A stretch of DNA of 25,874 nucleotides, taken from IMG/VR virus record IMGVR_UViG_3300042485_000150, positions 1 to 25,874 of that record. One strand, 5' to 3'. Every line of letters starts with the position of its first letter. Within the stretch, counting starts at the first letter, position 1. A model generated the notes under the pieces. That model searched no databases. It was not told where the DNA came from and worked only from the letters and a program-made list of their open reading frames with translations. Both the position numbers and the translations under genes were made by a program. This DNA comes from a virus. Positions 1 through 22,363 of this stretch are shown piece after piece.

Positions 1-1146
1 GGTTCTACTGTAGCTGAGGATGATGAGCAGTTGCATGGTACTAAAGGTATGCATGATGTGAAACCTGTTCTTGAAAGACAACACAATGAGCACCCTAAAG
101 ACGTGCTAGGTTCTTATTACGGCTCATTTTGCCAGCCTGAGTTTTGGTTAGAGAAGCCTAGAACAATGCCTGACTTACATGACTTGGATCTTCAACTAGC
201 TGCATCTACTACAGGTGATTTTGCTGAAGGCTGGCGTATAGCGCAGAAGTTAGAGGCTACAGAGCCAAGTAACAATAGAGCAGCATATAATCGTGGTTGG
301 TATCTCTTAAGACAAGGTCAGATTCAAAAGGGTTATCAGTTATTAGATAGAGGTCGTGTTGCTGGAGTCTTTGGTAATAAACAACCCGATGTACCTACAC
401 CACAGTGGGATGGCAAGACTAAAGGAATTGTGCTGTTAAATCTTGAAGGCGGTCTAGGCGATCAAATACATCAAGTTAGATATGCGAAGTATATCGCTGA
501 GAAGGGTTGTAAAGTCATCGTGGCTTGCTCTGGTCAGTTAGCGTCTTTATTCGTTAATGTAGAGGGTGTATCTAGCGTTATTCAGCACGAAGCGGTGTTT
601 GGTATCTATCATGACTTTTGGGTTGCTGGTATGAGTGCTATTGTACCGTTAGGCTTTGAATTAGAAGATATTAGTGGTGCACCTTATTTACCTAAACCTG
701 TTACAATAAAGGGAAGAAAGAAACGTATTGGTTTAAGATGGCAGGGCTCTACACAGTTTGAACATGAGCACCACAAAGCCTTTCCTTACCAGTTGATGTT
801 TGATGCTGTTAAGAGTGATAACTACGAGTTTATAAGTCTACAAAGAGATGCTGGTGTAGAGGCTACGCCTATGTGGGTTAAGCAAGTGCCTCTTAATAGT
901 TGGGAAGATACTAGAGCTGCTGTAGCAAGTTGTGATTTGGTCATATCGGCATGTACAAGTGTATCGCACTTATCGGCTGCCATGGGGATTGAGACTTGGG
1001 TAGTGACACCGATTATGCCTTACTTCCTATATGCACTAGAGGGCGAAGCAACCCCATACTATGACAGTATGACTTTAATAAGACAAGAAATATTTGGCGA
1101 GTGGGATGCCCCGTTTGCTTTAATTAAAGAAAGATTGGAGAACTAA
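1..1146 (+). CDS. TPR-containing glycosyltransferase family 9-like protein, 5' partial
   Basis: The frame is open from base 1 to a TAA at 1144-1146, so the gene probably begins left of the window. The TTG at 31 has no special support as a start. After an acidic, His-rich lead there is a TPR-like helix pair (about nt 180-360, around NNRAAYNRGWYLLRQGQIQKG). A GT-B-type domain follows: the GGLGDQIHQVRYAKYI segment (about nt 447-500), the RIGLRWQGS strand start (about nt 727-753) and the C-terminal nucleotide-sugar-binding region with DLVISACTSVSHLSAAMG (about nt 934-987). This order matches TPR proteins that end in a heptosyltransferase (GT9)-like domain. Such enzymes transfer a sugar from a nucleotide donor; the acceptor cannot be told here. 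The next gene starts directly after the stop codon. Modification of the fibre or of a host surface glycan is inference from position. Confidence 0.72.
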   Translation, partial: GSTVAEDDEQLHGTKGMHDVKPVLERQHNEHPKDVLGSYYGSFCQPEFWLEKPRTMPDLHDLDLQLAASTTGDFAEGWRIAQKLEATEPSNNRAAYNRGWYLLRQGQIQKGYQLLDRGRVAGVFGNKQPDVPTPQWDGKTKGIVLLNLEGGLGDQIHQVRYAKYIAEKGCKVIVACSGQLASLFVNVEGVSSVIQHEAVFGIYHDFWVAGMSAIVPLGFELEDISGAPYLPKPVTIKGRKKRIGLRWQGSTQFEHEHHKAFPYQLMFDAVKSDNYEFISLQRDAGVEATPMWVKQVPLNSWEDTRAAVASCDLVISACTSVSHLSAAMGIETWVVTPIMPYFLYALEGEATPYYDSMTLIRQEIFGEWDAPFALIKERLEN

Positions 1147-2358
1147 ATGTCAACTAAGTATCCCGGAGGCGTAATCAAGTCTTCACCTGTAGTACCAGCT
1201 GGACCGTATCAAAACAGTTCTGCTTCAGGTGTATGGACAATGGAGCAAGCGGGATACTGGATAAAACAAGGCAACTGGCCCACTGCTGGGAATTTACCAC
1301 CTTACGGGGGGTTGTACTCTTGGGGCCAAAATAATAGGGGTCAGTTAGGTCTAGGTAATATTACTAACCGTTCTAGTCCTGTGCAAGTAGGTGCACTTAC
1401 CACTTGGCTTAGCCTATCTGGGGGCGCTGAACATACCCTTACTATTAAAACTGATGGTACACTCTGGTCTTGGGGTTATAACGATAAGGGGCAGTTAGGT
1501 CTAGGTAATTCAACTTACTACTCAAGTCCTAAACAAATAGGTGCACTAACAACTTGGTCTAAAATTGCATGTGGAAATAGCTACACTATAGCCACTAAAA
1601 CTGATGGTACCCTTTGGTCTTGGGGGAGTAATAACTTTGGTCAACTAGGCCTAGGTAATATTACTAACCGTTCTAGTCCTGTGCAAGTAGGCGCACTAAC
1701 AACTTGGTTAAATATTGCATGTGGGGCTTTTCACACCATAGCAACTAAAACTGATGGTACACTCTGGTCTTGGGGTGGAAATAGTTTTGGGGAGTTAGGT
1801 CTAGGTAATACAACTAACCGCTCAAGTCCCGTACAAGTAGGTGCTCTTACAACTTGGTCTAAGATAGCATCAAATGGGGGTTACCATACCATAGCCACTA
1901 AAACAGATGGTACGCTCTGGTCTTGGGGAAAGAACGCTGACGGTCAGTTAGGGCTAGGTAACATAACTTACTATTCTTCTCCTAAACAAGTAGGCGCACT
2001 AACAACTTGGTTAAATATTGCAGGTGGGGAAGCTCACACCATAGCAACTAAAACTGATGGTACACTCTGGTCTTGGGGGGATGGCATCCATGGGCGGTTA
2101 GGTCTCGGCAATGAAACTAACTACTCAAGCCCTAAACAAATAGGTGCACTAACAACTTGGTCTAAAATTGCATGTGGGGAAGCTCACACCATAGCAACTA
2201 AAACTGATGGCACCCTGTGGTCATGGGGGTTTAATTCTAGCGGTCAGTTAGGTCTAGGCGATACAGACCAACGTTCAAGTCCTGTACAGGTAGGTGCACT
2301 AACAACTTGGTCTAAAATTGCATGTGGAGATAACTTTACTCTAGCCATCCAATCTTAA
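1147..2358 (+). CDS. Phage fibre-like protein with seven RCC1 beta-propeller repeats
   Basis: This 403-residue protein has two parts. Residues 1-45 carry the KYPGGVIKSSPVVPAG and SASGVWTMEQAGYWIKQGNWP signatures, a type of N-terminus seen on many marine phage virion proteins and probably a virion attachment segment. Residues 55-403 are seven units of about 50 residues, each built as LWSWG-x-N-xx-GQLGLGN, then SSPxQxGALTTW, then IACGxxHTIATKTDG. That is the RCC1 fold, and seven units is the blade number of a complete RCC1 propeller. In cells RCC1-type propellers bind proteins or chromatin; in a phage the likely role is host receptor binding as a fibre tip. Variation is concentrated in three short loops per blade. 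GGAG at 1137-1140 precedes the ATG. The stop of the upstream glycosyltransferase touches the start codon. Confidence 0.8.
   Translation: MSTKYPGGVIKSSPVVPAGPYQNSSASGVWTMEQAGYWIKQGNWPTAGNLPPYGGLYSWGQNNRGQLGLGNITNRSSPVQVGALTTWLSLSGGAEHTLTIKTDGTLWSWGYNDKGQLGLGNSTYYSSPKQIGALTTWSKIACGNSYTIATKTDGTLWSWGSNNFGQLGLGNITNRSSPVQVGALTTWLNIACGAFHTIATKTDGTLWSWGGNSFGELGLGNTTNRSSPVQVGALTTWSKIASNGGYHTIATKTDGTLWSWGKNADGQLGLGNITYYSSPKQVGALTTWLNIAGGEAHTIATKTDGTLWSWGDGIHGRLGLGNETNYSSPKQIGALTTWSKIACGEAHTIATKTDGTLWSWGFNSSGQLGLGDTDQRSSPVQVGALTTWSKIACGDNFTLAIQS
1318..2358 (+). repeat. Seven tandem ~150-bp RCC1 blade repeats
   Basis: The codons for SWG begin at 1318, 1468, 1618, 1768, 1921, 2071 and 2221, so the period is 150 bp with one unit lengthened by one codon. 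Similarity is high at the DNA level as well as in protein: 2024-2060 and 2174-2210 are identical over 37 bases. Two alternative loop versions (NRSSPVQ and YYSSPKQ types) are mixed along the array, which suggests copying between units. Confidence 0.9.
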
Positions 2359-2383: not shown

Positions 2384-2830
2384 ATGACACAATTATATGT
2401 ACAAGTAGTGAATGGCGAAATGGCACAATGTTGGGACACTATACCCCCAGTGCCAGTAGGTCAAGATGGTTGGAAGTATGCTATTGAGATTATTCCTACT
2501 GTTATACCTTACCAACAAGGCTTAAATGGTCCAGTCTATGATTGCACTAAAGACCCTGTTGAGATCGTATGGACAGTTTATGATATCTCTATTGATAGCC
2601 GTAAGTCTAATATGAAAGGTCAAAACTCAGGTCAGTTCAACCAAGTTGTAGCTTATGAAGCGCAAACTGAAACTGATGGCAACCCTAATACTCACTACGA
2701 TGCACAAGTAGTTGCAGATGCTCAGACACGTTATGAAAGAATTAATGTTGAGATTGCTGCAGCAACTACGCAAGACCAGTTAGATGTGATTCAACAAGAA
2801 CTAAACGCTTTTGTACCGCCATCTAACTAA
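2384..2830 (+). CDS. Small hypothetical tail-fibre-associated protein
   Basis: The 148-residue product has no motif I can assign with certainty. The N-terminal half is beta-like and aromatic (VQVVNGEMAQCWDTIPPVP, then VGQDGWKYAIEIIP). The C-terminal third is predicted helical (about residues 105-140, with TTQDQLDVIQQELNAF) and ends in FVPPSN. A clear AAAGGAAA ribosome site lies 8-12 bases upstream of the ATG. Its place directly after the propeller fibre resembles that of fibre-assembly or fibre-cap proteins, but this is inference from position only. The stop codon is followed after one base by the start of the methyltransferase gene, so the two are probably translated together. Confidence 0.6.
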   Translation: MTQLYVQVVNGEMAQCWDTIPPVPVGQDGWKYAIEIIPTVIPYQQGLNGPVYDCTKDPVEIVWTVYDISIDSRKSNMKGQNSGQFNQVVAYEAQTETDGNPNTHYDAQVVADAQTRYERINVEIAAATTQDQLDVIQQELNAFVPPSN

Positions 2831-2831
2831 T

Positions 2832-3398
2832 ATGAAGTTAAATCTTGGATGTGGGTATAACAAACTTGAAGGCTACATTAATGTAGATCAAGACCCACGT
2901 TGTAAGCCCGATGTTGTAGCAGACTTAGAGAAGACTTTGCCTTTTGAGGATAGCTCAGTAGATGAAATCGCTCTAACTCACGTGCTAGAACATCTGGGTC
3001 AAGATACTAAAACTTACCTAAACATATGGAAAGAGTTCTACCGTGTACTAAAAGACCAAGGCATTATAAAGATTGTCGTGCCTCATCACTTACACGAGAA
3101 CTTCCACCACGATCCTACGCATTGTAGGAAAGTAACACCTGTCGGTGTGGACATGTTTAGTCAAGAAAGAAATCTTCATACGATTGAGACAGGAGGTTCT
3201 GAGACTACGTTAGGTCTGCAGTGTGGTATTGATATAGGTGTTACTGAAGTTGGGTACGACCTCATGCCAGAAGTGCAAAAAGAGCTTCAAGGGCAACCAT
3301 ACCATATAATAGAGCGTGAAGTTAATAAGCGTAACAATGCATGTTTTCAAGTGCAGATCAACGCCAAAGCCTACAAACCAGCAAGAGGTGATGTATAA
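2832..3398 (+). CDS. Class I SAM-dependent methyltransferase
   Basis: The start is placed at ATG 2832, giving 188 residues. A TTG at 2811 in the same frame would add seven residues inside the previous gene and would put extra sequence before MKLNLGCG, the expected first beta strand. The SAM-binding glycine loop is LNLGCG (residues 3-8), the acidic end of strand 2 is INVDQD (D19), and HVLEHL (50-55) followed by FYRVLKDQGIIKIVVP (69-84) matches the central core of small Methyltransf_11-like enzymes. The family moves a methyl group from S-adenosylmethionine to small molecules, sugars or proteins; no DNA methyltransferase catalytic motif (NPPY or PC) is seen. There is no good ribosome site, so coupling to the gene before is likely. 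It lies in a block with a glycosyltransferase and a fibre. Confidence 0.78.
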   Translation: MKLNLGCGYNKLEGYINVDQDPRCKPDVVADLEKTLPFEDSSVDEIALTHVLEHLGQDTKTYLNIWKEFYRVLKDQGIIKIVVPHHLHENFHHDPTHCRKVTPVGVDMFSQERNLHTIETGGSETTLGLQCGIDIGVTEVGYDLMPEVQKELQGQPYHIIEREVNKRNNACFQVQINAKAYKPARGDV

Positions 3399-3769
3399 TG
3401 GGTTTTAAGTTAAGCGAGAAGTCTTTAAAGCGGTTAGAAGGGGTACACCCTGATTTGGTAAAGGTCGTACAACATGCCATTACTATAACGCCTTTAGATT
3501 TTGTGGTACTTGAAGGCCTACGCTCTAAAGAAAGACAACGCTATTTGGTAGACAAAGGTGCTTCTAAAACGATGGACTCTTACCATATTACAGGACATGC
3601 AGTGGACATAGCGCCTATAATAGGAGGAGAAGTTTCATGGGATTGGAAGTACTATAATGCCTTATCTGCCTTTATTAAAGAGGCGGCGCAAGATGTTGGG
3701 GTTTTTATAGAATGGGGTGGAGATTGGAAGACTTTTAAAGACGGTCCTCACTGGCAGATACATAGATAA
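3398..3769 (+). CDS. M15-family peptidase endolysin (L-Ala-D-Glu or D-Ala-D-Ala type)
   Basis: The 123 residues form a single compact catalytic domain. The SYHITGHAVDIAP motif supplies zinc ligands H63 and D70. EWGGDW (105-110) and DGPHW supply the probable catalytic D115 and the third zinc ligand H118. GLRSKERQ (40-47) is the substrate-side arginine motif. This is the arrangement of the M15 endolysins such as that of phage T5, which cut peptide bonds in the peptidoglycan stem. There is no signal peptide and no separate cell-wall-binding domain, as is usual for phages of Gram-negative hosts, so export needs a holin. The next gene encodes a plausible one. The start ATG shares one base with the TAA of the methyltransferase gene. 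Confidence 0.9.
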   Translation: MGFKLSEKSLKRLEGVHPDLVKVVQHAITITPLDFVVLEGLRSKERQRYLVDKGASKTMDSYHITGHAVDIAPIIGGEVSWDWKYYNALSAFIKEAAQDVGVFIEWGGDWKTFKDGPHWQIHR

Positions 3770-3782: not shown

Positions 3783-3959
3783 ATGGCGTTTTTCTCATGG
3801 GTACTAGCAAGATTACAAGAAAGCTCAACATGGTACGGCCTAGCGGCTATACTAACAACTGCGGGTTTGAACTTAGATCCTGCTCTTAGTAAAGAGATTA
3901 TAAGCTTCGGTGTAAGTGCTGCTGGCTTTATTGCTGTTATAACTAAGAACAAAACATAA
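3783..3959 (+). CDS. Small holin-like membrane protein (58 aa)
   Basis: A 58-residue frame runs from ATG 3783 to TAA 3957-3959, directly after the endolysin. It has two hydrophobic stretches, residues 17-31 (WYGLAAILTTAGLNL) and 40-54 (ISFGVSAAGFIAVIT), separated by a short loop with D32, K37 and E38. It ends in the basic tail KNKT. Size, hairpin topology and position beside an M15 peptidase fit a small class II-like holin, which makes membrane holes that release the endolysin to the periplasm. It has a good ribosome site, and its TAA shares one base with the ATG of the next gene, as with other junctions here. Holins are too diverse for a family to be named from sequence alone. Confidence 0.72.
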   Translation: MAFFSWVLARLQESSTWYGLAAILTTAGLNLDPALSKEIISFGVSAAGFIAVITKNKT

Positions 3960-4588
3960 TGCTTGGGTTTGCTCCTCTTGCGACTATACCAATAGCGGAC
4001 ATACTGCTAGGAAACACTGTCACTCTAGCGGGGCAAAACCTAACCTTAACTCAATCTTCTGTATCAGCTGCAATATCAGCTACCATAAACCTTACAGGGC
4101 AAACAGCCCTTGTATTGGCTCAAAACTCTACATCCGTAACCGCCACAGCAAGTTACACGCTAGTAGGTCAAAACCTAGCATTTACTCAAAACAACCTAAG
4201 TATAACAGCTAGTAGTGTAAAGCTGCTCTTGGGTCAAGTAGCAATGAACTTAGCTCTCAATTCAATAGAGGCTACCGCAGCGGCAAATGCAATATTAACA
4301 GGGCAAACAACCCTTGTGCTGACCCAAACCAATGTAGCTGTTACGGCAGCGGCAAACTATGAATTAATAGGGCAATCTTTAACGCTAACACAAAACAGTA
4401 CAAAAGAGGCTGTAGCGCCTACATTAGGCAGCCAAAACATGCAATTAACCTTGCATTCTATGCGTATGTGGAACAAAATAGACCCATCGCAGAACCCTAA
4501 TTGGACGAGCATAAATACAACGCAATCATCAGGTTGGACGGAAATAAATACTGCTCAAAACCCTAATTGGACTGACATACCTACTTAA
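3959..4588 (+). CDS. Virion structural protein with seven ~22-residue beta repeats
   Basis: The 209-residue product opens with MLGFAPLATIPIAD, an N-terminal type found on marine phage structural proteins. About seven units of roughly 22 residues follow (residues 18-160), with the core pattern L-x-GQ-x-L-x-LTQNS-xx-VTA. Alternating hydrophobic residues suggest two beta strands per unit, as in a beta-solenoid or stacked fibre shaft. The C-terminal 45 residues repeat a tryptophan unit, NPNWTSINTTQ, SSGWTEINTAQ and NPNWTDIPT. There are no cysteines and very few charged residues before the tail. A fibre, spike or decoration role is inference. The gene follows the holin with a one-base stop/start overlap. 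Confidence 0.65.
   Translation: MLGFAPLATIPIADILLGNTVTLAGQNLTLTQSSVSAAISATINLTGQTALVLAQNSTSVTATASYTLVGQNLAFTQNNLSITASSVKLLLGQVAMNLALNSIEATAAANAILTGQTTLVLTQTNVAVTAAANYELIGQSLTLTQNSTKEAVAPTLGSQNMQLTLHSMRMWNKIDPSQNPNWTSINTTQSSGWTEINTAQNPNWTDIPT
4010..4450 (+). repeat. Seven imperfect ~66-bp repeats encoding GQ-LTQNS beta units
   Basis: The GQ (or SQ) core dipeptide recurs at about residues 25, 47, 69, 92, 114, 136 and 157 of the encoded protein. The units are conserved more in protein than in DNA, so this is an older duplication than the RCC1 array. Confidence 0.65.
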
Positions 4589-7776: not shown

Positions 7777-9276
7777 ATGGCATATAACACAACTGCAAAA
7801 GGCTTAGCATCTCTAGGACGTCATGGGGACGATACACTCTTACATGTTAGCAAAGACGAACTAGCCGGGCTTCAAGCTATTATAGGACACAAACTACCAA
7901 CCAACCCACATACAGGGCTACAAGAGGCGTTTGACTTAAAGAACATAATTGCCATGCTAGGTATAGGTGCCCTTGGTGCGTTTACAGGGGGTGTAGGCTC
8001 TGCCTTAGTTGGCGGTGGAACTATGGGGGCTCTTACAGGTACTGCCCTAGGTGCGGGTACTGGTGCTTTAGCTGGTGGGTCATTGAGTGCAGCTCAAGGC
8101 AAAGGCTTTGGGGCAGGTGCGTTAGGCGGTGCTTTGTCTGGTGGTATGGGGGGATTTGGTGGTAGTAATTTGTCTGGGGCTCCTACTGGGAGCACAAGTG
8201 TAGCAGTAAACCCCACAACAACATCTCCTATAACATCTTCTACACCCTTGTTAGAAGCCCCTGCTATACCTAAAGAATATATTAACTTAACTACTCCTTC
8301 TTTTGAAACTCCTCAGTTTAATGCTAAAGATTTTACTCCTAGTTTTAAGCCTGAAACAACCCTACAAAGTACAGCCACAGGTACAGAAAACCCTTTAACC
8401 CTAGGGCAAGCTTCAAAAGGGCAATTTAATGCTATGGGGGCTAACCAAGATGCCACAATGGAATGGCTAAAACCCACAGGTATGGGGGCTCTTTTAGGGG
8501 CTGGTGCTCAAGATATGGTAGAGCAGAACCAAGCTATGGCTACTCAAATGCGCCAAGCAAAGTTACAAGCGCAAGCTAATGAACAACAGCAACAAGACTA
8601 TTTTAAAAACTTAGGGTACCCATTAGCGTCGCTTTCTAGCCTTAATAGTCCTGATACCCAAACGCAGTTTAATTACTACAAAGATATTATTAATCCTAAA
8701 CAAAGCTATGCTGTGGGGGGTCCTGTAACAAAAAATGTAGCTGTGGGAGGAGTTCCTATTTCCTTCACTGTTCCACCTAGGTATTTAGATGAATTTTCAA
8801 AGTTAGATATTCCACACGAGATTAACCAAGCTAAAAACATTACTCAAGAAGGTATGGGTATGGCGAATGGGGGATATATTAATACTCAACCTGTAAACCC
8901 AAATGCTTTTTACCCCCAATCTCAAATACATAGTGCACAACCTTATCCAGCAGCTACACCACAACGCCATGAAATAATAGAAGGCTTTGAAGATGGAGGC
9001 ATGTTAGATGGTCCGGGGGATGGTATGTCTGATGACATCCCTGCTAATATAGATGGTGAAGAAGAGATTAGGTTGGCTGATGGTGAGTTTGTTGTACCAC
9101 CTGATTTAGTACGTATGTTGGGTTTTGGTGACCCTGAAAAAGGTGCTGATTTATTAGACAACCTGCTACCTATAGTAAGACAAGCGGCGCATGGTAAAAA
9201 AGAACAGATTAAACAAGACGCAGGTAAATTGGCTGCTGAGAAAATGTTAGCTAGAGCAGTAAAAGGTAAAGCATGA
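7777..9276 (+). CDS. Gly-rich internal virion or ejection protein with C-terminal LADGEFVVPPDLV domain
   Basis: This 499-residue protein has four zones. Residues 1-55 are a soluble head. Residues 57-125 are a long Gly/Ala-rich hydrophobic stretch with many GxxxG patterns, a possible membrane-inserting segment. Residues 130-405 are Thr/Pro/Gln-rich. The C-terminal domain from about 405 contains GFEDGGMLDGPGDGMSDDIP and RLADGEFVVPPDLVRMLGFG, followed by a Lys-rich helical tail ending VKGKA. The C-terminal domain type is common in marine phage virion proteins. Its core is shared with the protein encoded at 10061-11170. Membrane-active glycine-rich segments fit proteins ejected with DNA, but that role is inference. 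The stop overlaps the start of the cupin-SET gene by four bases (ATGA). Confidence 0.65.
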   Translation: MAYNTTAKGLASLGRHGDDTLLHVSKDELAGLQAIIGHKLPTNPHTGLQEAFDLKNIIAMLGIGALGAFTGGVGSALVGGGTMGALTGTALGAGTGALAGGSLSAAQGKGFGAGALGGALSGGMGGFGGSNLSGAPTGSTSVAVNPTTTSPITSSTPLLEAPAIPKEYINLTTPSFETPQFNAKDFTPSFKPETTLQSTATGTENPLTLGQASKGQFNAMGANQDATMEWLKPTGMGALLGAGAQDMVEQNQAMATQMRQAKLQAQANEQQQQDYFKNLGYPLASLSSLNSPDTQTQFNYYKDIINPKQSYAVGGPVTKNVAVGGVPISFTVPPRYLDEFSKLDIPHEINQAKNITQEGMGMANGGYINTQPVNPNAFYPQSQIHSAQPYPAATPQRHEIIEGFEDGGMLDGPGDGMSDDIPANIDGEEEIRLADGEFVVPPDLVRMLGFGDPEKGADLLDNLLPIVRQAAHGKKEQIKQDAGKLAAEKMLARAVKGKA

Positions 9277-10064
9277 ACTCCGTTCAGACCCAAGGAATCG
9301 TAAACTCTATTGATGAGCTGGCAGTGTGTATACAAGCTAAAGTGGACAGTGGCGAACTGCAAGGTGTAGAAACTCCCCTAAAGCACTACCACACAAAAGA
9401 GTTATACGGGCGTAGGATTATTGTCCCCGCAGGGTGCTTTTTTACAACCGCAGTACACAAAACAGATCATATATCTGTGGCTTTTAGAGGGCGTATAACA
9501 ATGCTTAACTCTGAAGGTGAATCTCAAGAAGTAACTGCCCCTGATATGTTTATAACACCAGCTGGAACGCACCGTGTAGTTTATGTGCACGAAGAAGTGG
9601 AATTTGCTACTATACACGCATGTACTGAACAAGATGATACTAAAGTTGCTGAAGTGTTGACGTTTAATACAATGGCAGAGTACCAACAGTACGACTATAT
9701 ACAAGCTATTACAGAGGCGGGGTTTACAGATATGCAAGCTAGAGCACTTTCAGAAAATCTAGAAGACCAAGTACCGATGCCAGAGAATGAGAAACTGACT
9801 TATATAGCCCCCTCTGCTATTCAAGGTCAAGGTGTATTTGCTTTTGAAGACATCCCTAGTGGTGCTCGTATAGCCCCCGGACGTATTGGACAATTTAGAA
9901 CCTCTGTTGGGAGATATACGAATCATAGTTCATTCCCTAATACACAGTACGTGCTGGCTGGAGATAATATAGACATGTACGCTATAAAAAAGATATATAA
10001 AAACGAAGAACTTACTGTGGACTACAGACAAGCTAACCGAGTAAGACTAGGAGCAGAACAATGA
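9273..10064 (+). CDS. Cupin-SET domain fusion, putative protein-lysine methyltransferase
   Basis: The 263-residue protein joins two domains. Residues about 36-117 read as a cupin-like beta barrel: RRIIVPAGCFFTTAVHKTDH, then VAFRGRITML, then APDMFITPAGTHRVVYVHE, with H62, H66 and H100 as possible metal ligands. Residues about 176-251 match a SET domain: the SAM-side GQGVFAFEDIPSGARI (185-200), the pseudoknot motif GRYTNHSSFPN (213-223; the usual NHSCxPN with Cys replaced by Ser), the AIKKI strand, and EELTVDY with the expected catalytic Tyr Y251. The region between the two SET halves (SET-I) is almost absent, so it is a minimal SET domain. The family methylates lysine side chains. It overlaps both neighbours by four bases and lies among virion genes, so a virion or host protein target is inferred. 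No substrate can be read from the sequence. Confidence 0.75.
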   Translation: MNSVQTQGIVNSIDELAVCIQAKVDSGELQGVETPLKHYHTKELYGRRIIVPAGCFFTTAVHKTDHISVAFRGRITMLNSEGESQEVTAPDMFITPAGTHRVVYVHEEVEFATIHACTEQDDTKVAEVLTFNTMAEYQQYDYIQAITEAGFTDMQARALSENLEDQVPMPENEKLTYIAPSAIQGQGVFAFEDIPSGARIAPGRIGQFRTSVGRYTNHSSFPNTQYVLAGDNIDMYAIKKIYKNEELTVDYRQANRVRLGAEQ

Positions 10065-15433: not shown

Positions 15434-18400
15434 ATGGCTAACGAAACTGCAATAGATAATTTTACTAACGCCTCTAACTCTGCTACACCTCCTAATACTC
15501 GTGGGCTAGACGCCTTTTTAAATATGGGAGAGTTTGCCCCTGCGCCTATATCCCGTGAGTTACCAACACTACCTCAAGAAGAAACTACTACACCTACTAG
15601 AGCACCTCTTTCTAGTTATAATGAAGCATTTCAAAGAGCTGAAAGTCAGTATGGTTTGCCTAGTGGAATTTTATCTTCTATGGCATATCAAGAAAGTAGG
15701 TTTAATCCCGATGCTGTAAATAAAAAAAGTGGCGCCACAGGCATCTTACAGTTTATACCTAAAACCGCTAAAGAATATGATATTGATCCTCGTGATCCTC
15801 ATGCCTCTATTAATGCCGCTGGTAAGAAAATGGCGGGATTGGTTAAATATTATAATGGTGATGTAACAAAAGCTGTTGCTGCTTATAACTATGGGGAAGG
15901 AAACCTCAATAAAGCTATACGAAAAGCAGGGGACAATTGGATGTCTGCTATACCTGAAGAGACTCAAGGTTACCTATCTAATATATTAGGAGGACGTCCC
16001 CAACAAGCGCAAACACAAACTCCTCAAGAAGATACATATGATATTCCTTTATTAAGTGGAGGCGTTTTAAAAGTTCCTTCTAGTATATCCAGAGAAGACG
16101 CCCTTGCGGAAGCTAGGTCAAATGGAATAGATGCTGTAGGTCTAAGAGATTTACTACTAGCCAGTGGTTCTAAACTACGTGTCCCTGATAATATAACAGA
16201 TGAAGACGCCCTTGCAGAAGCTAAAGAGTTACACCCGGACTTAGACTTTACAACTAAAGCTGAAGCAGAACATTATGAAAAAATGGGTTTTATACCTAGT
16301 GCTAAAAGTGCCGCTTTAATTGGGGGTAGTACCTTTCTTAGAGGTGGTGCTGAAATGCTTCAGGGTGCTGGGCAGTCTATGGGCTTTCCTTCATTGGAAC
16401 AAATTGGTACTTCCGGTATAGAAAAAAGTAAAGAGTGGGAGAAAAAAGCAGGTGAGATGTCTGAAGCTCCTACAGAAACAGACCCTTTGTATAGACAGAT
16501 TCCTCATTATGCTGGAGAGGTAGTTGGTGGGATTGGTCCTTATGCCACTGGTCTTGCTCTTGCACCCGAAGTGGTTGCTCCGTCTTTACTAGCTGGAACT
16601 ATGGGCTCTCAAGCACTAGGTAGTATGGCTCAAAGAACCGATGAGCAAGGTAAAGACTTTGAAGTAATGCCTCATCTACCTGCAGCAGCAGCAGAAACAG
16701 CTGTTAATTATGTAACCCTAGGGGTCTTAGGTCCTCTTAAAGGTAAGATACAAAGCCGATTCATGGAAGAACTGCTAACGCCTAATGTTCAAAAGTATAT
16801 TGCTGATGTTGTAGAGACTAAAGGTGTAGAAGCAGGTAAAGCTGCGGTTGGATCTAAAGTTGCTGACATTGCAAAAGAATTTGGATTGAACACTACTGGT
16901 ATGGTATTTGGTGATGTGGGTTCTGCTGTTATTGAACGTGCCGCTACTGGACAGGATGTGTCTTCCCCTGAAGCTATGGATGAGTATTGGGAGAACCTTA
17001 AAACGGATCTTGTTGGCGGTGGTTTATTAGCGGGGCCTATGGGCTTATCTCGTCATGCAGGTAAACAAGGCGCTTTAGAACAGGCTCAAGCAGAAGCAGA
17101 AGCCCCACCTCCGGTTGCACCAGAAGTTAGTCAACCAGAAGTTAATGAACAAGGCTATACACCAGAACAACAAGCGGCTATAGAAGTTATTGCTCCTGTA
17201 TCGGAACCCCCAGCGCCAGAACAACCTACGACAGAACAAGCCCTACCAACAGGAGAAGCCGTTACTCCTATACCTGAACAACCCACGACAGAACAAGTAT
17301 CTGTTGCGCCAACTCCGCCTATTGTGGAAGAGCAAAATGTAACTCAAACGGATACAGGCGAAATAGAAGAACCGACTATAAGACAACCTGAACAACCTAA
17401 AGCGCCTGAACAACCTGAAGCGCCTGAACAACCTGAAGCGCCTCATTGGGCGGATACTCTTGGAATAGCTCCATCTAGTGCTAAGTATAAACAACTTAAG
17501 CAATTAGATATAAATGATACAGATCAACATCCAGCTATAAAACGCATATTAGACTCGGTTGCTAGTACAAATATGAAAAAGGACTCTGCGGCTATAGAGG
17601 ATCTTTATAAACAGTTAGATGTTGTATCTCCAGAAGAGACTAGTAAAAAGAAATTAGATTTTGGTGAAGCCCTAGGGTACGGCTGGAAACCCCAAGTAGA
17701 TAGAGAAGGACGTATAACTGCTAAATTAAAAGAAACAGAAAACGAGGAGCTACGTAAAGCTGTACATAGTAGTGACATAAACTCCACTATAAGCGTTCTT
17801 AGCGAAAGTAAAAATCCTATTATTAGACACTTAGCAGAAACTACAAAAAACCTTACTGATCTTAATATTAAAGTTGGTGGTATATTAGGTAAAGCAAAAA
17901 GAGGGGCTACACGGGCGGGAGAATATTCTCCATCTGCTCACACTATACGTTTGAATCCAAAATATGCAGGTAACGAAACTACAGTAGGGCATGAATTGCT
18001 TCATGCTAACGTATACCATGCTATAGAAAATCCTACACAGAAACAAAAACCTTCTGTTGAAGGACTCAAAAAATTACATGAAACAGTTAAAACTCACCCT
18101 ACTTTACATAAAGAATATGGGGTTACAAATGTCCATGAGTTTGTATCTGAAGGCTTAACTAACCCGGAGTTTCAATATAAGCTTAAAAAGATCAAATACG
18201 AAAACACTACTATGTGGGGCAAGTTCACACAATCTATAGCTAATATGCTTGGGCTTAAACGTGATAATGCCTTTGTAGAATTGCTTACTCATACAGAAAA
18301 CCTATTGCCTAGCGAACCAGTACGTAGGGGGAAAGATACAAAAGGGGGCAAACCTTTATACAACGAACAGGAGCGAACAGATGCCGACAAAATCTCTAAA

Positions 18401-21400
18401 GCAACAACACCTAATGTTAGCCGCAGCACACAACCCGAAATTCGCCAAGAAGGTAAAGGTGCCCCAATCAGTAGCAAAGGAGTTCGTGAAGGCAGACCAG
18501 AAACTAAAGAAGAAAAAGTAACCCACGGGATAAATATTAACGACAAGGAACAAGCATTTACCGATCAAATATTAGCTGGGGAAAAAACAATTGAGACTAG
18601 GGACTCAAACTCATTAAAACCCTATATTGGTAAGAGAATGGGGCTTATTAAAACAGGTAAAGGTAAGGCGATGCATGTGGGTTATGCCACAATAGGGGAG
18701 CCAAAAGTCTATGATTCAGAAGCAAAATTTAGAGCTGACGAAGATAAACACCTAGTTAGTAAAGGCACCTTCCATGATATAAGTGATAAGAAATACGGAC
18801 GCCCTTTAAAATACGGATATCCTCTAACAGACATTGAGTCAATTACCCCTGTTCCAGTTACATCTGAGGGTCACGTTGCAAGAGTATTACCAGAAGCTAA
18901 AGAAGAAAAAGTAAATCCTGTAGTTTCTCCAAAGGTTGTTACTACCGATATAGAAAACCCAAGTGACTTTAAAAAAGAACACTACGAGCGAGCACTAGCT
19001 GAGGGTAATTATACAGAGCATAAAACAAAAAAAGGAGATATAATAAAACTTGTTAATTTACAAGATAAGTATAACCAATCAGGTGTTATTAAAGCCTTTG
19101 ATGAAAATAACAACCCTATAGGCTTTTTAGATTACGCTAATATAAAACAAGAAGGTAGTACTCCAGGGGTGTATGACGTAATTCCAAACCCCGATGTTGA
19201 AGTAGACTGGGACTGGCATAGACAAGGCATAGCCACAGCTATGTACGATTTAGCTGAAGAAACAGGAGGGCTTATCCCTTCTTATGAAACTTCCGCTTTA
19301 CGTACTGAATTGGGTGGGGCCTTTAGGAAAAGTAGAGAGCTAGCTAAGCTTGGAAAACCTAGGACATCTATTGAGGCAGATAGAGACGCACTTAAAGATA
19401 GAATAACTCATCTAGAAAAGTCATTGGATTATGAGAAAGACATGCCTGACTATCTTAGATGGTCAGAAAGTAGATTAGCTTTAGTGAATAAAGAAATAGA
19501 AGCCCTGAAAAAAGCTGCTTCATTACCAACTCCCCCAAGCCTTACTAAATTTGTAGAATCTTTTCAGGAACAAAACCAAGAAAAAGTAGGTCCTCTTTAC
19601 TCAGAAGTGCCTTCTGATGAGCCTGAGTTAGATAGATTGCGTTCGGCTGACATTTTGGTGGACCGTAGTCCTAAAGTAGAAGAATTAAAAAAACAACGTG
19701 ATAAAGATATAGAAAAAGCTCAAATGGCCGCTAGTAACCAAAGTGTTATTGGTCGCACGTTAAATAAAATACGTCAAAAATATATAGCCCACGATAGTAT
19801 GTTGGATTACTTAACTCGTGAAGACAAAACTGTTATGCCTAACGGAGAGTTTCACGAACGTATACTGCGAAATCAAGCTAAAGAACGTAGAAACTTTATA
19901 AGTAGTGCTATAGAACATGGGTTTGTTACTCGCTCTAGTACTGGACTATTAACTATAAATAGATCAGATAAACTTAATTTAGTTAAAATCTTAGAGCGTT
20001 CTCATGACCTTCCTAAAGGATATAAAGCAGAAGACGTTGAGCGTATTCTTACAGTGCTTGCTAATGAAGGGCACCAATTAAGATATCAAGATATAGAACG
20101 CCGAGCAGTACAACGCAGAGCCGATGCAGCTAAACTAATGGCCTTTGCAAAAACATTTCCTAAGAAGTCAGAGCCGAGAATATCTGCTATGACCGCAGCA
20201 AAAGAAATACGCAAATTGGCTGAAAGCGATCAACGTAGAGTAGATAAGATAAAAGCCGAAGGCGGTATAGGTGCACATATTACGCCTGATATGATATCTG
20301 ACGCGCATAAAGTTATGTCTACTGTACCTGAAATTAAATCTATTGTGGATGATGTGCATAAAGTCATGCGGTCTTTGGTAGATTTGTTAGAAAGCACTGG
20401 TAATATAGATGCAACCGTAGCTCGTGAATGGCGTAATCCTAAGTATCAGTACGCTCCGCTCTATATGTCTACTGACGAACTAGAATCTATGGGGGAGTCT
20501 AATATAAGTGTTTCTTCTGCAGTAAAAGGTATCGGTAAAGTTAAAGCTAAAGGAGTTAGTGAACATAAAATAAACATGTTTGAAAACTTACAAAAACATT
20601 ATGCTTTTGCTGTTGATGCTGCAATGGAAAACAATTATAAAACTGCATCATTAAACTGGTTGGCTAGACATGGCTCTGCCAGGGAGTTAGCTTTTAATAA
20701 TGGTAGTAAGTTCATGCAGGTGGTTAGTGTTTTACGTAAAGGTAAATCTGTTATGTATGCCATTGACGATCCAGTATTATTCGATGCTTTTAAAGATGTT
20801 GCTAGGTTAGAATTACCATCCTTTATTACTGCTCCATCTATGGTTATTCGTAAAGGCGCTTTGACAAACCCTATGTTTTGGTATCGCCAATTAATACGTG
20901 ACCCATTCATGGCTAATTTCACTGCTCAAACAGGGTTAGTTACGCCTATAGGTGCTGCAAGATCTTTCTTAAAAATTATTACTAACAGTAGTGAAGAGTA
21001 TAAAGAGTTAGTTAATAAAGGTATATTACAGTCGCAAAGCAACTTAGCAGATCAAAAGATAGATTTCATTAAAGGAAGAAAACAACGAGGTGCTGTAGAA
21101 AAAGGGTGGTCTTGGATACAACACATACATGAAGCAGCCGATGCGGCTACTAGAGTGGAAGTTTATAAAGCAGCTCTTAAAGAAGCTAAGTCAGTAAAAG
21201 GTTTAACCGAAGAAGGCAAAAAAGACTTTGCTACATCTAGAGCTAGAGACTTTATGAGTTTTGCTAACCAAGGTAATGACGCTACTATACGCATGGTAAA
21301 TCAATCGGTGCCTTTCTTTAACTCGTTTTTAAATGGTATGGATGTGCTTTTACGTAATGCTTCTGGAATGAATATGTCCAAAGCTGATGCAGCTAGAGCA

Positions 21401-22363
21401 CGTAAAATGTTTAGAACTAGGGCTATGTATATGACTCTAGCCTCTATGGCCTACTCTTACACCTTAGCTAATAGCTCTCAAGATTATAGAGAAGCCAAAG
21501 CTGATGATTGGATGAATAACTGGTTGATACCAACTCCATGGAATAACCGTATGGGCAAAGCAGCATCTCCATTTGAAGTAGGTACTGCATTTAAACTAAT
21601 ACCAGAAGCTATGGTACGACAAATGATGGGTTTAGATACAGGCACTCGTAGTAAAGAGTTATTATATAATTCTGTTATTAATGGGCTAACCCCACCTTTA
21701 CCTATCCCTGCATTTATTAAACCTATATTAGAAGCTGTTACTGGTAAATCTATGATCAGTAAAAATCCAGCAGAGTGGTTTGACATTGAAAACCAAGGGG
21801 ATAAAAACTTAGTCCGTGCAGAACGTGGTAGAGGTAAATCTTATCTTGCTGATGCCTTTAGTGATGTTACTGGAACATCTCCGGCTATTGGTGCTCAACT
21901 TTTAAGAGGGTATTTTACCGAGGTTTATAACGTAGCTGATATGTTTGCAAAAGGAATATCTACTGGTTTTGGAGAACAGGTAGGTAAAGATTGGACCGAA
22001 ACTACACCTTTTGTTAAAGCCTTTGTTACTAATCCTAATGCTTTGGCAGATCAAAATGAAGTATATTCCCAAGCAGAAAAATATAATCAGATATCCAATA
22101 CTCTTAAACATTTACTTAGAGTAGGAGACCCAAGAGCGGCATTGTATGCTACATCGGAAAACATCCCCGCCTTATACGGTAGTAAAGCAGAAGCTAAAGT
22201 CCTGTCAATGATGGCTAAGTTAAATCAAGCTATGGTATTTACTCAAAACGATGCGTCTATGCCTATAGAAAAAAAGCGTAAACAAATGGATGAACTGCTT
22301 ACTATGAAGCGTAATATACTTAAGATGGGTACAGGAATAATAAAGGATGTTGAAGAGGATTAA
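15434..22363 (+). CDS. Giant multidomain ejection (polyvalent) protein with lytic transglycosylase domain
   Basis: The 2309 residues contain, in order: a lytic transglycosylase (SLT) domain, about 62-185, with catalytic E87 in YQESRF, then SGATGILQFIPKTA and AAYNYGEGN; two LxVPxxIxxEDALAEA repeats (about 208-275); Gly-rich hydrophobic helices (285-400 and 520-550); a Pro/Gln/Glu linker (555-675); a zinc-peptidase-like domain with HELLH (853-857) and VHEFVSEGL (900-908); an ASCH-like domain (about 1031-1143, with ILAGEKTIETRDS); a GNAT-like domain (about 1178-1275, acetyl-CoA loop HRQGIATAMYDLAEE from H1262); coiled coil near 1315-1360; and a large C-terminal region resembling polyvalent-protein-associated domain LPD38 (about 1740-1985, with RARDFMSFANQGND and PFFNSFLNGMD). 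T7 gp16 is a similar ejected SLT protein. ASCH, GNAT and LPD38 assignments rest on motif recall. Its stop is followed by a terminator hairpin. Confidence 0.8.
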   Translation: MANETAIDNFTNASNSATPPNTRGLDAFLNMGEFAPAPISRELPTLPQEETTTPTRAPLSSYNEAFQRAESQYGLPSGILSSMAYQESRFNPDAVNKKSGATGILQFIPKTAKEYDIDPRDPHASINAAGKKMAGLVKYYNGDVTKAVAAYNYGEGNLNKAIRKAGDNWMSAIPEETQGYLSNILGGRPQQAQTQTPQEDTYDIPLLSGGVLKVPSSISREDALAEARSNGIDAVGLRDLLLASGSKLRVPDNITDEDALAEAKELHPDLDFTTKAEAEHYEKMGFIPSAKSAALIGGSTFLRGGAEMLQGAGQSMGFPSLEQIGTSGIEKSKEWEKKAGEMSEAPTETDPLYRQIPHYAGEVVGGIGPYATGLALAPEVVAPSLLAGTMGSQALGSMAQRTDEQGKDFEVMPHLPAAAAETAVNYVTLGVLGPLKGKIQSRFMEELLTPNVQKYIADVVETKGVEAGKAAVGSKVADIAKEFGLNTTGMVFGDVGSAVIERAATGQDVSSPEAMDEYWENLKTDLVGGGLLAGPMGLSRHAGKQGALEQAQAEAEAPPPVAPEVSQPEVNEQGYTPEQQAAIEVIAPVSEPPAPEQPTTEQALPTGEAVTPIPEQPTTEQVSVAPTPPIVEEQNVTQTDTGEIEEPTIRQPEQPKAPEQPEAPEQPEAPHWADTLGIAPSSAKYKQLKQLDINDTDQHPAIKRILDSVASTNMKKDSAAIEDLYKQLDVVSPEETSKKKLDFGEALGYGWKPQVDREGRITAKLKETENEELRKAVHSSDINSTISVLSESKNPIIRHLAETTKNLTDLNIKVGGILGKAKRGATRAGEYSPSAHTIRLNPKYAGNETTVGHELLHANVYHAIENPTQKQKPSVEGLKKLHETVKTHPTLHKEYGVTNVHEFVSEGLTNPEFQYKLKKIKYENTTMWGKFTQSIANMLGLKRDNAFVELLTHTENLLPSEPVRRGKDTKGGKPLYNEQERTDADKISKATTPNVSRSTQPEIRQEGKGAPISSKGVREGRPETKEEKVTHGININDKEQAFTDQILAGEKTIETRDSNSLKPYIGKRMGLIKTGKGKAMHVGYATIGEPKVYDSEAKFRADEDKHLVSKGTFHDISDKKYGRPLKYGYPLTDIESITPVPVTSEGHVARVLPEAKEEKVNPVVSPKVVTTDIENPSDFKKEHYERALAEGNYTEHKTKKGDIIKLVNLQDKYNQSGVIKAFDENNNPIGFLDYANIKQEGSTPGVYDVIPNPDVEVDWDWHRQGIATAMYDLAEETGGLIPSYETSALRTELGGAFRKSRELAKLGKPRTSIEADRDALKDRITHLEKSLDYEKDMPDYLRWSESRLALVNKEIEALKKAASLPTPPSLTKFVESFQEQNQEKVGPLYSEVPSDEPELDRLRSADILVDRSPKVEELKKQRDKDIEKAQMAASNQSVIGRTLNKIRQKYIAHDSMLDYLTREDKTVMPNGEFHERILRNQAKERRNFISSAIEHGFVTRSSTGLLTINRSDKLNLVKILERSHDLPKGYKAEDVERILTVLANEGHQLRYQDIERRAVQRRADAAKLMAFAKTFPKKSEPRISAMTAAKEIRKLAESDQRRVDKIKAEGGIGAHITPDMISDAHKVMSTVPEIKSIVDDVHKVMRSLVDLLESTGNIDATVAREWRNPKYQYAPLYMSTDELESMGESNISVSSAVKGIGKVKAKGVSEHKINMFENLQKHYAFAVDAAMENNYKTASLNWLARHGSARELAFNNGSKFMQVVSVLRKGKSVMYAIDDPVLFDAFKDVARLELPSFITAPSMVIRKGALTNPMFWYRQLIRDPFMANFTAQTGLVTPIGAARSFLKIITNSSEEYKELVNKGILQSQSNLADQKIDFIKGRKQRGAVEKGWSWIQHIHEAADAATRVEVYKAALKEAKSVKGLTEEGKKDFATSRARDFMSFANQGNDATIRMVNQSVPFFNSFLNGMDVLLRNASGMNMSKADAARARKMFRTRAMYMTLASMAYSYTLANSSQDYREAKADDWMNNWLIPTPWNNRMGKAASPFEVGTAFKLIPEAMVRQMMGLDTGTRSKELLYNSVINGLTPPLPIPAFIKPILEAVTGKSMISKNPAEWFDIENQGDKNLVRAERGRGKSYLADAFSDVTGTSPAIGAQLLRGYFTEVYNVADMFAKGISTGFGEQVGKDWTETTPFVKAFVTNPNALADQNEVYSQAEKYNQISNTLKHLLRVGDPRAALYATSENIPALYGSKAEAKVLSMMAKLNQAMVFTQNDASMPIEKKRKQMDELLTMKRNILKMGTGIIKDVEED
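17387..17440 (+). repeat. Three tandem 18-bp repeats encoding PEQPEA
   Basis: Units lie at 17387-17404, 17405-17422 and 17423-17440. The second and third are identical and the first differs by one base (Lys for Glu). They encode the end of a Pro/Glu linker before the peptidase-like part of the giant protein and are a likely site of length variation. Confidence 0.85.

Follow-up and report, generated by a model that had tools for sequence, protein, structure and literature searches.

A seven-bladed RCC1 propeller in a viral genome as a candidate receptor-binding module with sequence tracts shared between blades

The window analyzed here is the whole 25,874-nt stretch of the viral record IMGVR_UViG_3300042485_000150 (positions 1 to 25,874). 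At 1147-2358 it carries a gene for a 403-aa protein with a 55-aa N-terminus and, from there to its C-terminal end, seven RCC1 repeats. The features of the locus are as follows.

1-1146, plus strand: 3' portion of a 606-aa gene that begins with a sulfotransferase domain (whole gene in contig L002, 3392-5212)
1147-1311, plus strand: N-terminal adaptor, 55 aa, common to virion-type proteins with different C-terminal folds
1312-1461, plus strand: RCC1 blade 1, loop state R..V
1462-1611, plus strand: RCC1 blade 2, loop state Y..K
1612-1761, plus strand: RCC1 blade 3, loop state R..V
1762-1914, plus strand: RCC1 blade 4, loop state R..V, one residue longer
1915-2064, plus strand: RCC1 blade 5, loop state Y..K
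2065-2214, plus strand: RCC1 blade 6, loop state Y..K
2215-2355, plus strand: RCC1 blade 7, loop state R..V, the C-terminal end of the protein
2384-2830, plus strand: 148-aa gene without a family match, 3' of the RCC1 gene in nearly all relatives
3398-3769, plus strand: M15-type endolysin, a context gene

The Pfam RCC1 family matches the protein in seven stretches (E 3e-96; 316 bits against a curated cut-off of 21.7). An AlphaFold2 model has a pLDDT of 88.5 overall and of about 95 in the propeller, and the adaptor part is of low pLDDT apart from one helix. The closest solved structure to the modeled propeller is UVR8 (35% identity, TM 0.79/0.85, rmsd 1.5). According to the model the gene product is a closed seven-blade ring, in agreement with a preliminary description of this DNA, which had proposed a full RCC1 ring. 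That description placed the start at 1318; blade 1 begins 6 nt before, at 1312, and the gene itself starts at 1147, so that its coordinates leave out the N-terminus.

On L002, a longer contig from this phage that is 99.9% identical to the window over 8.4 kb, two further seven-blade RCC1 genes lie upstream, and their N-termini differ from that of the window gene. With the window RCC1 gene, the phage thus has three seven-blade RCC1 genes in tandem, and the 606-aa sulfotransferase-domain gene stands between the window copy and the two upstream copies. This array layout is shared by relatives, and most of the fuller records hold 7, 21 or 28 RCC1 repeats, with a few counts just below these values. 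The position of the 148-aa gene next to RCC1 was counted in loci fetched by the 148-aa gene itself and reaching far enough upstream; its product might, as a guess, be a fibre-assembly factor. When the 148-aa gene was used as a query against the genome collection, no relative was found, and therefore no host link was obtained. The other neighbours of the window RCC1 gene are a methyltransferase, the M15 endolysin and virion structural genes, and in one relative a tail-fibre-like gene lies just upstream in the RCC1 neighbourhood.

Several further features were observed around these loci. A sulfotransferase-domain gene with a long C-terminal part without assignment lies between RCC1 genes in many relatives; our guess is that the copy at L002:3392-5212 may modify surface glycans or virion proteins. 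At four loci (L063-L066) the usual slot upstream of the 148-aa gene has no RCC1 gene, and a sulfotransferase-type gene lies directly against the 148-aa gene; in the record behind L063, seven RCC1 repeats occur elsewhere, despite its empty usual slot. Endonuclease-like genes occur at different points inside the RCC1 arrays of L002 (2664-3470, NUMOD3) and L010 (8988-9737, GIY-YIG-looking), and seem to be absent from the matching interval in L003 and others; such genes could promote local conversion. In the window itself, 3959-4588 encodes a protein of 209 aa whose internal repeats follow the pattern LTGQ(N/T)LxLTQxxxxVxAxA; 9273-10064, within the virion gene block, encodes a 263-aa protein that matches a SET domain (E 5e-9); and 15434-22363 encodes a 2309-aa polyvalent protein with an N-terminal SLT transglycosylase and LPD38 near the C-terminus, which is probably an ejected virion protein.

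The N-terminal 50 residues of the window protein were found in more than 50 viral loci, joined to RCC1 propellers, DUF7483, LamG (laminin-G/ConA-like), Gly-rich and Lcl_C lectin-like domains; in phage DSL-LC04 the same adaptor is carried on a ConA-like lectin. The virion-type N-terminus suggested earlier is consistent with this distribution among lectin-like and other virion-type sequences. In L103 (4001-5002), L119 (4001-4981) and L104 the same adaptor is fused to fn3 and an Lcl_C lectin-like domain, a fold class known from retroelement-diversified proteins; no reverse transcriptase was found on these three short contigs. Outside the adaptor family, the T7-like Pseudomonas phage isolates PollyC and Ppr_SeaP1-4 have an RCC1 propeller behind a T7 gp17-type tail-fibre N-terminus (PF03906, E about 6e-5, slightly under the cut-off), and their fibre gene occupies the tail-fibre position, with an internal virion protein ahead of it and holin and terminase behind it. 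Because the adaptor bears swapped lectin-like modules, the gene lies in a tail module and T7-like fibres carry similar fusions, we infer that the window protein is located in the virion, that its propeller is probably a tail-tip attachment protein, and that this propeller would bind a receptor. The literature searched contained no tests of virion location or binding for RCC1 propeller proteins, and a search of incomplete coverage found no paper that describes RCC1 propellers as receptor-binding or hypervariable modules of phages.

Loop variation among related phages, on which the preliminary description had counted, is strong. Between the window and sister phages the propeller is only about 63-77% identical, against mostly 87-95% in the flanks; by part, the upstream gene is at 92-95%, the adaptor mostly at 86-95%, the 148-aa gene at 87-94% and the propeller at 64-76%. 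Likewise, phage pairs with flanks of mostly 84-96% identity have propellers of 62-77% nucleotide identity, and the propeller is the least conserved part in all 15 pairs of the six phages with comparable flanks (the window phage, L003, L005, L006, L008 and L011). The silent codon identity of a blade to the same blade in another phage is 0.529, to a random RCC1 blade of another phage 0.521, and to other blades within the gene 0.538. Same-position blade orthology between phages is erased, and the grouping of blades by genome, as seen in the within-gene value, is weak. The T7-like set repeats the pattern independently: its flanks are 97-98% identical in nucleotides and its fibre N-termini 95-100% in amino acids, and propeller identity falls to about 30% in amino acids. 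The SeaP phages even have two very different propeller types between the same flanks.

The preliminary description had seen the diversified surface in two loop alleles, assigned to blades 1, 3, 4 and 7 versus 2 and 5, with blade 6 intermediate. The loop states of blades 1-7 are R Y R R Y Y R; the assignment of the first six named blades is correct, but blade 6 (NYSSPKQ) is in the Y..K state. Among 461 blades, the residue pair flanking SSP is Y-K in 247, R-V in 139, Y-V in 12 and R-K in two, and the pairing was found in distant phages too. As judged from these alignments, R..V / Y..K is a coupled two-state feature of the whole family and switches from one blade position or genome to another. 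The main diversified surface is a different one; the hypervariable sites lie elsewhere.

Across 154 blades from 22 genes most columns hardly vary, and the entropy reaches 2.7-3.7 bits in six: the residue that follows WSWG, two residues in front of GQLG, a further two within the G-x-x-H loop, and the H itself. In the AlphaFold2 model the strands of blade 2 comprise residues 106-110, 125-131, 137-142 and 146-151, and the variable columns are located in the loops between strands 1 and 2 and between strands 3 and 4; one such column is the first residue of strand 4. Since the blade is antiparallel, these two loops lie on one face. The mean entropy of the loops on this face is 1.62 bits, against 0.49 bits for the nearly invariant loops of the opposite face (GALTT and TDGT). 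When aligned with UVR8 (residue numbers by our own counting), the variable positions fall on W94, D96, W233/W285/W337 and R234, whereas D107 is matched by a less variable position; D96 and D107 have a role in the UVR8 dimer surface. The tryptophans contribute to the surface through which UVR8 dimers interact (PMC9546227). Strand order and the UVR8 alignment both place the hypervariable positions on one predicted face, as the earlier proposal of a common propeller surface would have it.

Long identical DNA tracts are shared by blades of the window gene:

1351-1391, plus strand: 41-nt tract identical to 1651-1691 (blades 1 and 3), taking in the R..V loop
1528-1574, plus strand: 47-nt tract identical to 2131-2177 (blades 2 and 6)
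2024-2060, plus strand: 37-nt tract identical to 2174-2210 (blades 5 and 6), taking in the hypervariable residues E-A-H

The 37-nt match was already reported in the preliminary description and is exact; the other two are longer. Tracts of at least 36 identical nt occur in six of the 21 blade pairs within the window gene, in one of 98 pairs with the other RCC1 genes of the same phage, and in none of 931 pairs with blades of other phages. For all genes, the corresponding numbers are 14/462 within a gene, 5/931 with another gene of the same phage and 9/9884 between phages (non-orthologous pairs; p 6e-14 versus within gene), and a replicate set of 39 separate genes gave 5/744 within a gene versus 7/32014 (p 4e-6); these p-values are only a guide, the blade pairs being partly dependent on one another. 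The window gene accounts for six of the 14 within-gene tracts and its sister gene b for one. A silent-site permutation was significant for the window gene (p = 0.018-0.024) and in fewer than half of the gene and genome tests, and the within-gene silent excess of the window gene (+0.075) is the largest of 22 genes. Homogenization is weak overall, because average within-gene silent identity is barely above background (0.538 versus 0.521), and it is strong only in some genes, most of all in the window gene. Taken as a sign of strong concerted evolution, that average is weak.

Most tracts span the middle of the blade (LGLGN..SSPxQVGALTTW), including the two-state loop, and the six hypervariable positions are included in only two of the 14 within-gene tracts. 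Agreement at these positions among blades of one gene equals chance (0.132 versus 0.137, and 0.13-0.14 everywhere), suggesting that conversion rarely copies the hypervariable residues. From the tract coverage and this chance-level agreement it follows that exchange would keep the framework alike and that the loop residues differ by some other input, of which selection is probably a part.

Closely related phages give a view of recent changes. L017 and L018 have three differences in 1590 nt, all within 8 nt of one blade-7 loop, and over 2476 nt L010 differs from L009 by just 2 nt, which lie in two neighbouring hypervariable codons; donors for the loop changes of L017 and L010 were searched for and none was found. 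A candidate conversion of blade 1 of L067b from its own blade 7 failed at the codon level. L041b and L043b have blades 1-2 in common and different blades 3-7, which indicates a crossover inside the gene, and in L009b/L010 the N-termini of genes a and b are fused in a single gene. In Ppr_SeaP1 (L135:2121-4823), the RCC1 propeller of the fibre contains a tandem duplication of 37 aa, which its close relatives SeaP2-4 and PollyC lack. The clustered changes, crossover, gene fusion and duplication fit frequent recombination. A recombinase search of the records did not find RecA or RecT, and ERF was found in G015 only. No reverse transcriptase (RVT_1) was found in 25 records, several of 53-68 kb and some possibly incomplete, with positive controls, and this agrees with the earlier suggestion of diversification without such an enzyme.

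The main rival explanation is pure allele replacement, in which co-infecting phages swap propellers or large segments by homologous recombination in the adaptor and the downstream gene; blade-to-blade exchange would then be rare and secondary, and the diversity would be old and maintained by balancing selection. The sharp fall of identity from the conserved flanks to the propeller, the crossover in L041b/L043b, the fused N-termini of L009b/L010 and the two SeaP propeller types between the same flanks are all expected from it. However, it leaves the roughly 30-fold excess of identical within-gene tracts unpredicted, and among genes of different lineages, where sampling is thin, no donor propeller of >85% identity was seen. 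We regard it as possible, though rather unlikely.

An ordinary RCC1 repeat gene, recently amplified and under strong fold constraint, with loop types that are due to chance or structure and have no role in diversification, appears improbable. The family-wide coupling of R..V / Y..K is what structural constraint would give, and RCC1 repeats are common in phages; but silent sites among blades are near background and the amplification is therefore not recent, the tracts are local and not whole-blade, and the variation is confined to the propeller and concentrated in the loops of one face. Targeted hypermutation of loop codons, for example by a diversity-generating retroelement elsewhere in the genome, could produce the clusters of changed neighbouring loop codons that set near-identical phages apart, and the same adaptor does carry an Lcl_C domain in L103 and L119. 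We consider it very improbable, as the 25 records gave no reverse transcriptase and the framework silent sites are fully different too, which is unexpected from loop-targeted mutation. A role in DNA condensation, suggested for the RCC1 protein of phAPEC6 (PMC7247149) and echoed in the database names of phage RCC1 proteins, is just as improbable given the adaptor common to lectin-like proteins, the tail-module location, the hypervariable face and the T7-fibre fusions.

The explanation that we favour, and hold to be reasonably probable, is a receptor-binding propeller diversified by tract exchange between blades, exchange between phages and selection. The N-terminal adaptor would dock the propeller to the virion and the loops of one propeller face would bind the host receptor. 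Several tandem RCC1 genes per phage would bring 21-28 blades with near-identical framework close together, so that short tracts could be copied from blade to blade within a gene and, more rarely, from one gene to another, while whole propeller segments would pass between phages. The framework would thereby stay uniform and recombinable, new loop residues would be kept by selection for receptor change, and the ring would be held at seven blades because closure needs seven. The molecular process of tract exchange suggested by the shared sequences is gene conversion, and selection would act on the loop residues. Between-blade gene conversion, as proposed in the preliminary description, accounts for the shared framework tracts but cannot alone explain the near-random hypervariable residues and the lost blade orthology; therefore, between-phage exchange and selection are also needed. 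Of the earlier interpretation as a whole, the ring, the adaptor, the tract exchange and the one-face variation are supported; the loop alleles as the diversified surface are not, and conversion is not enough by itself. A more specific version, reverse-transcriptase-free receptor diversification in which three or four propellers form a 21-28-blade repertoire and tract conversion continually recombines the hypervariable face, is put forward tentatively, with the odds slightly against it.

Phage RCC1 proteins usually bear the name of a nuclear protein and are left without explanation. If the proposed reading is true, many of them would be host-recognition modules, in which six variable positions per blade and seven blades add up to about 42 such positions, all on the same face of a scaffold that stays fixed. 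Phages would then have a repeat-based way to alter a binding surface, comparable to that of fungal self/non-self receptors. The idea of a receptor module is testable in the cultured T7-like phages.

The proposed system is close to the HET-D/HET-E (NWD) family of WD40 repeat proteins in Podospora anserina, in which repeats are exchanged within and between genes (PMC1805685). Both have propeller repeats of high identity in a multigene family, exchange within and between genes (in the phage a proposed one), and in each repeat a small number of variable codons on one face, which in the phage is a predicted interaction face. However, HET-D/E are WD40 receptors of the fungal immune type and the window gene encodes an RCC1 protein of a phage; homogenization is weaker in the phage genes. 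UVR8 has the closest solved fold, and its dimer-face residues match the variable loop positions, but it is a plant UV-B photoreceptor with fixed Trp, Arg and Asp at the matched positions. The fibre of PollyC and Ppr_SeaP1-4 resembles the window protein in its C-terminal propeller, which is variable beside conserved neighbours; in contrast, it is encoded by one large gene with a T7 gp17-type N-terminus, its blades are far more diverged from each other, and tandem RCC1 genes were not seen at its locus. Finally, the targets of diversity-generating retroelements, such as Mtd-type C-type lectins, are phage receptor-binding surfaces diversified at a few positions of a fixed scaffold. The window system differs from them in that no reverse transcriptase was found in the 25 records and in that its variation is spread over seven repeats and tied to repeat exchange.
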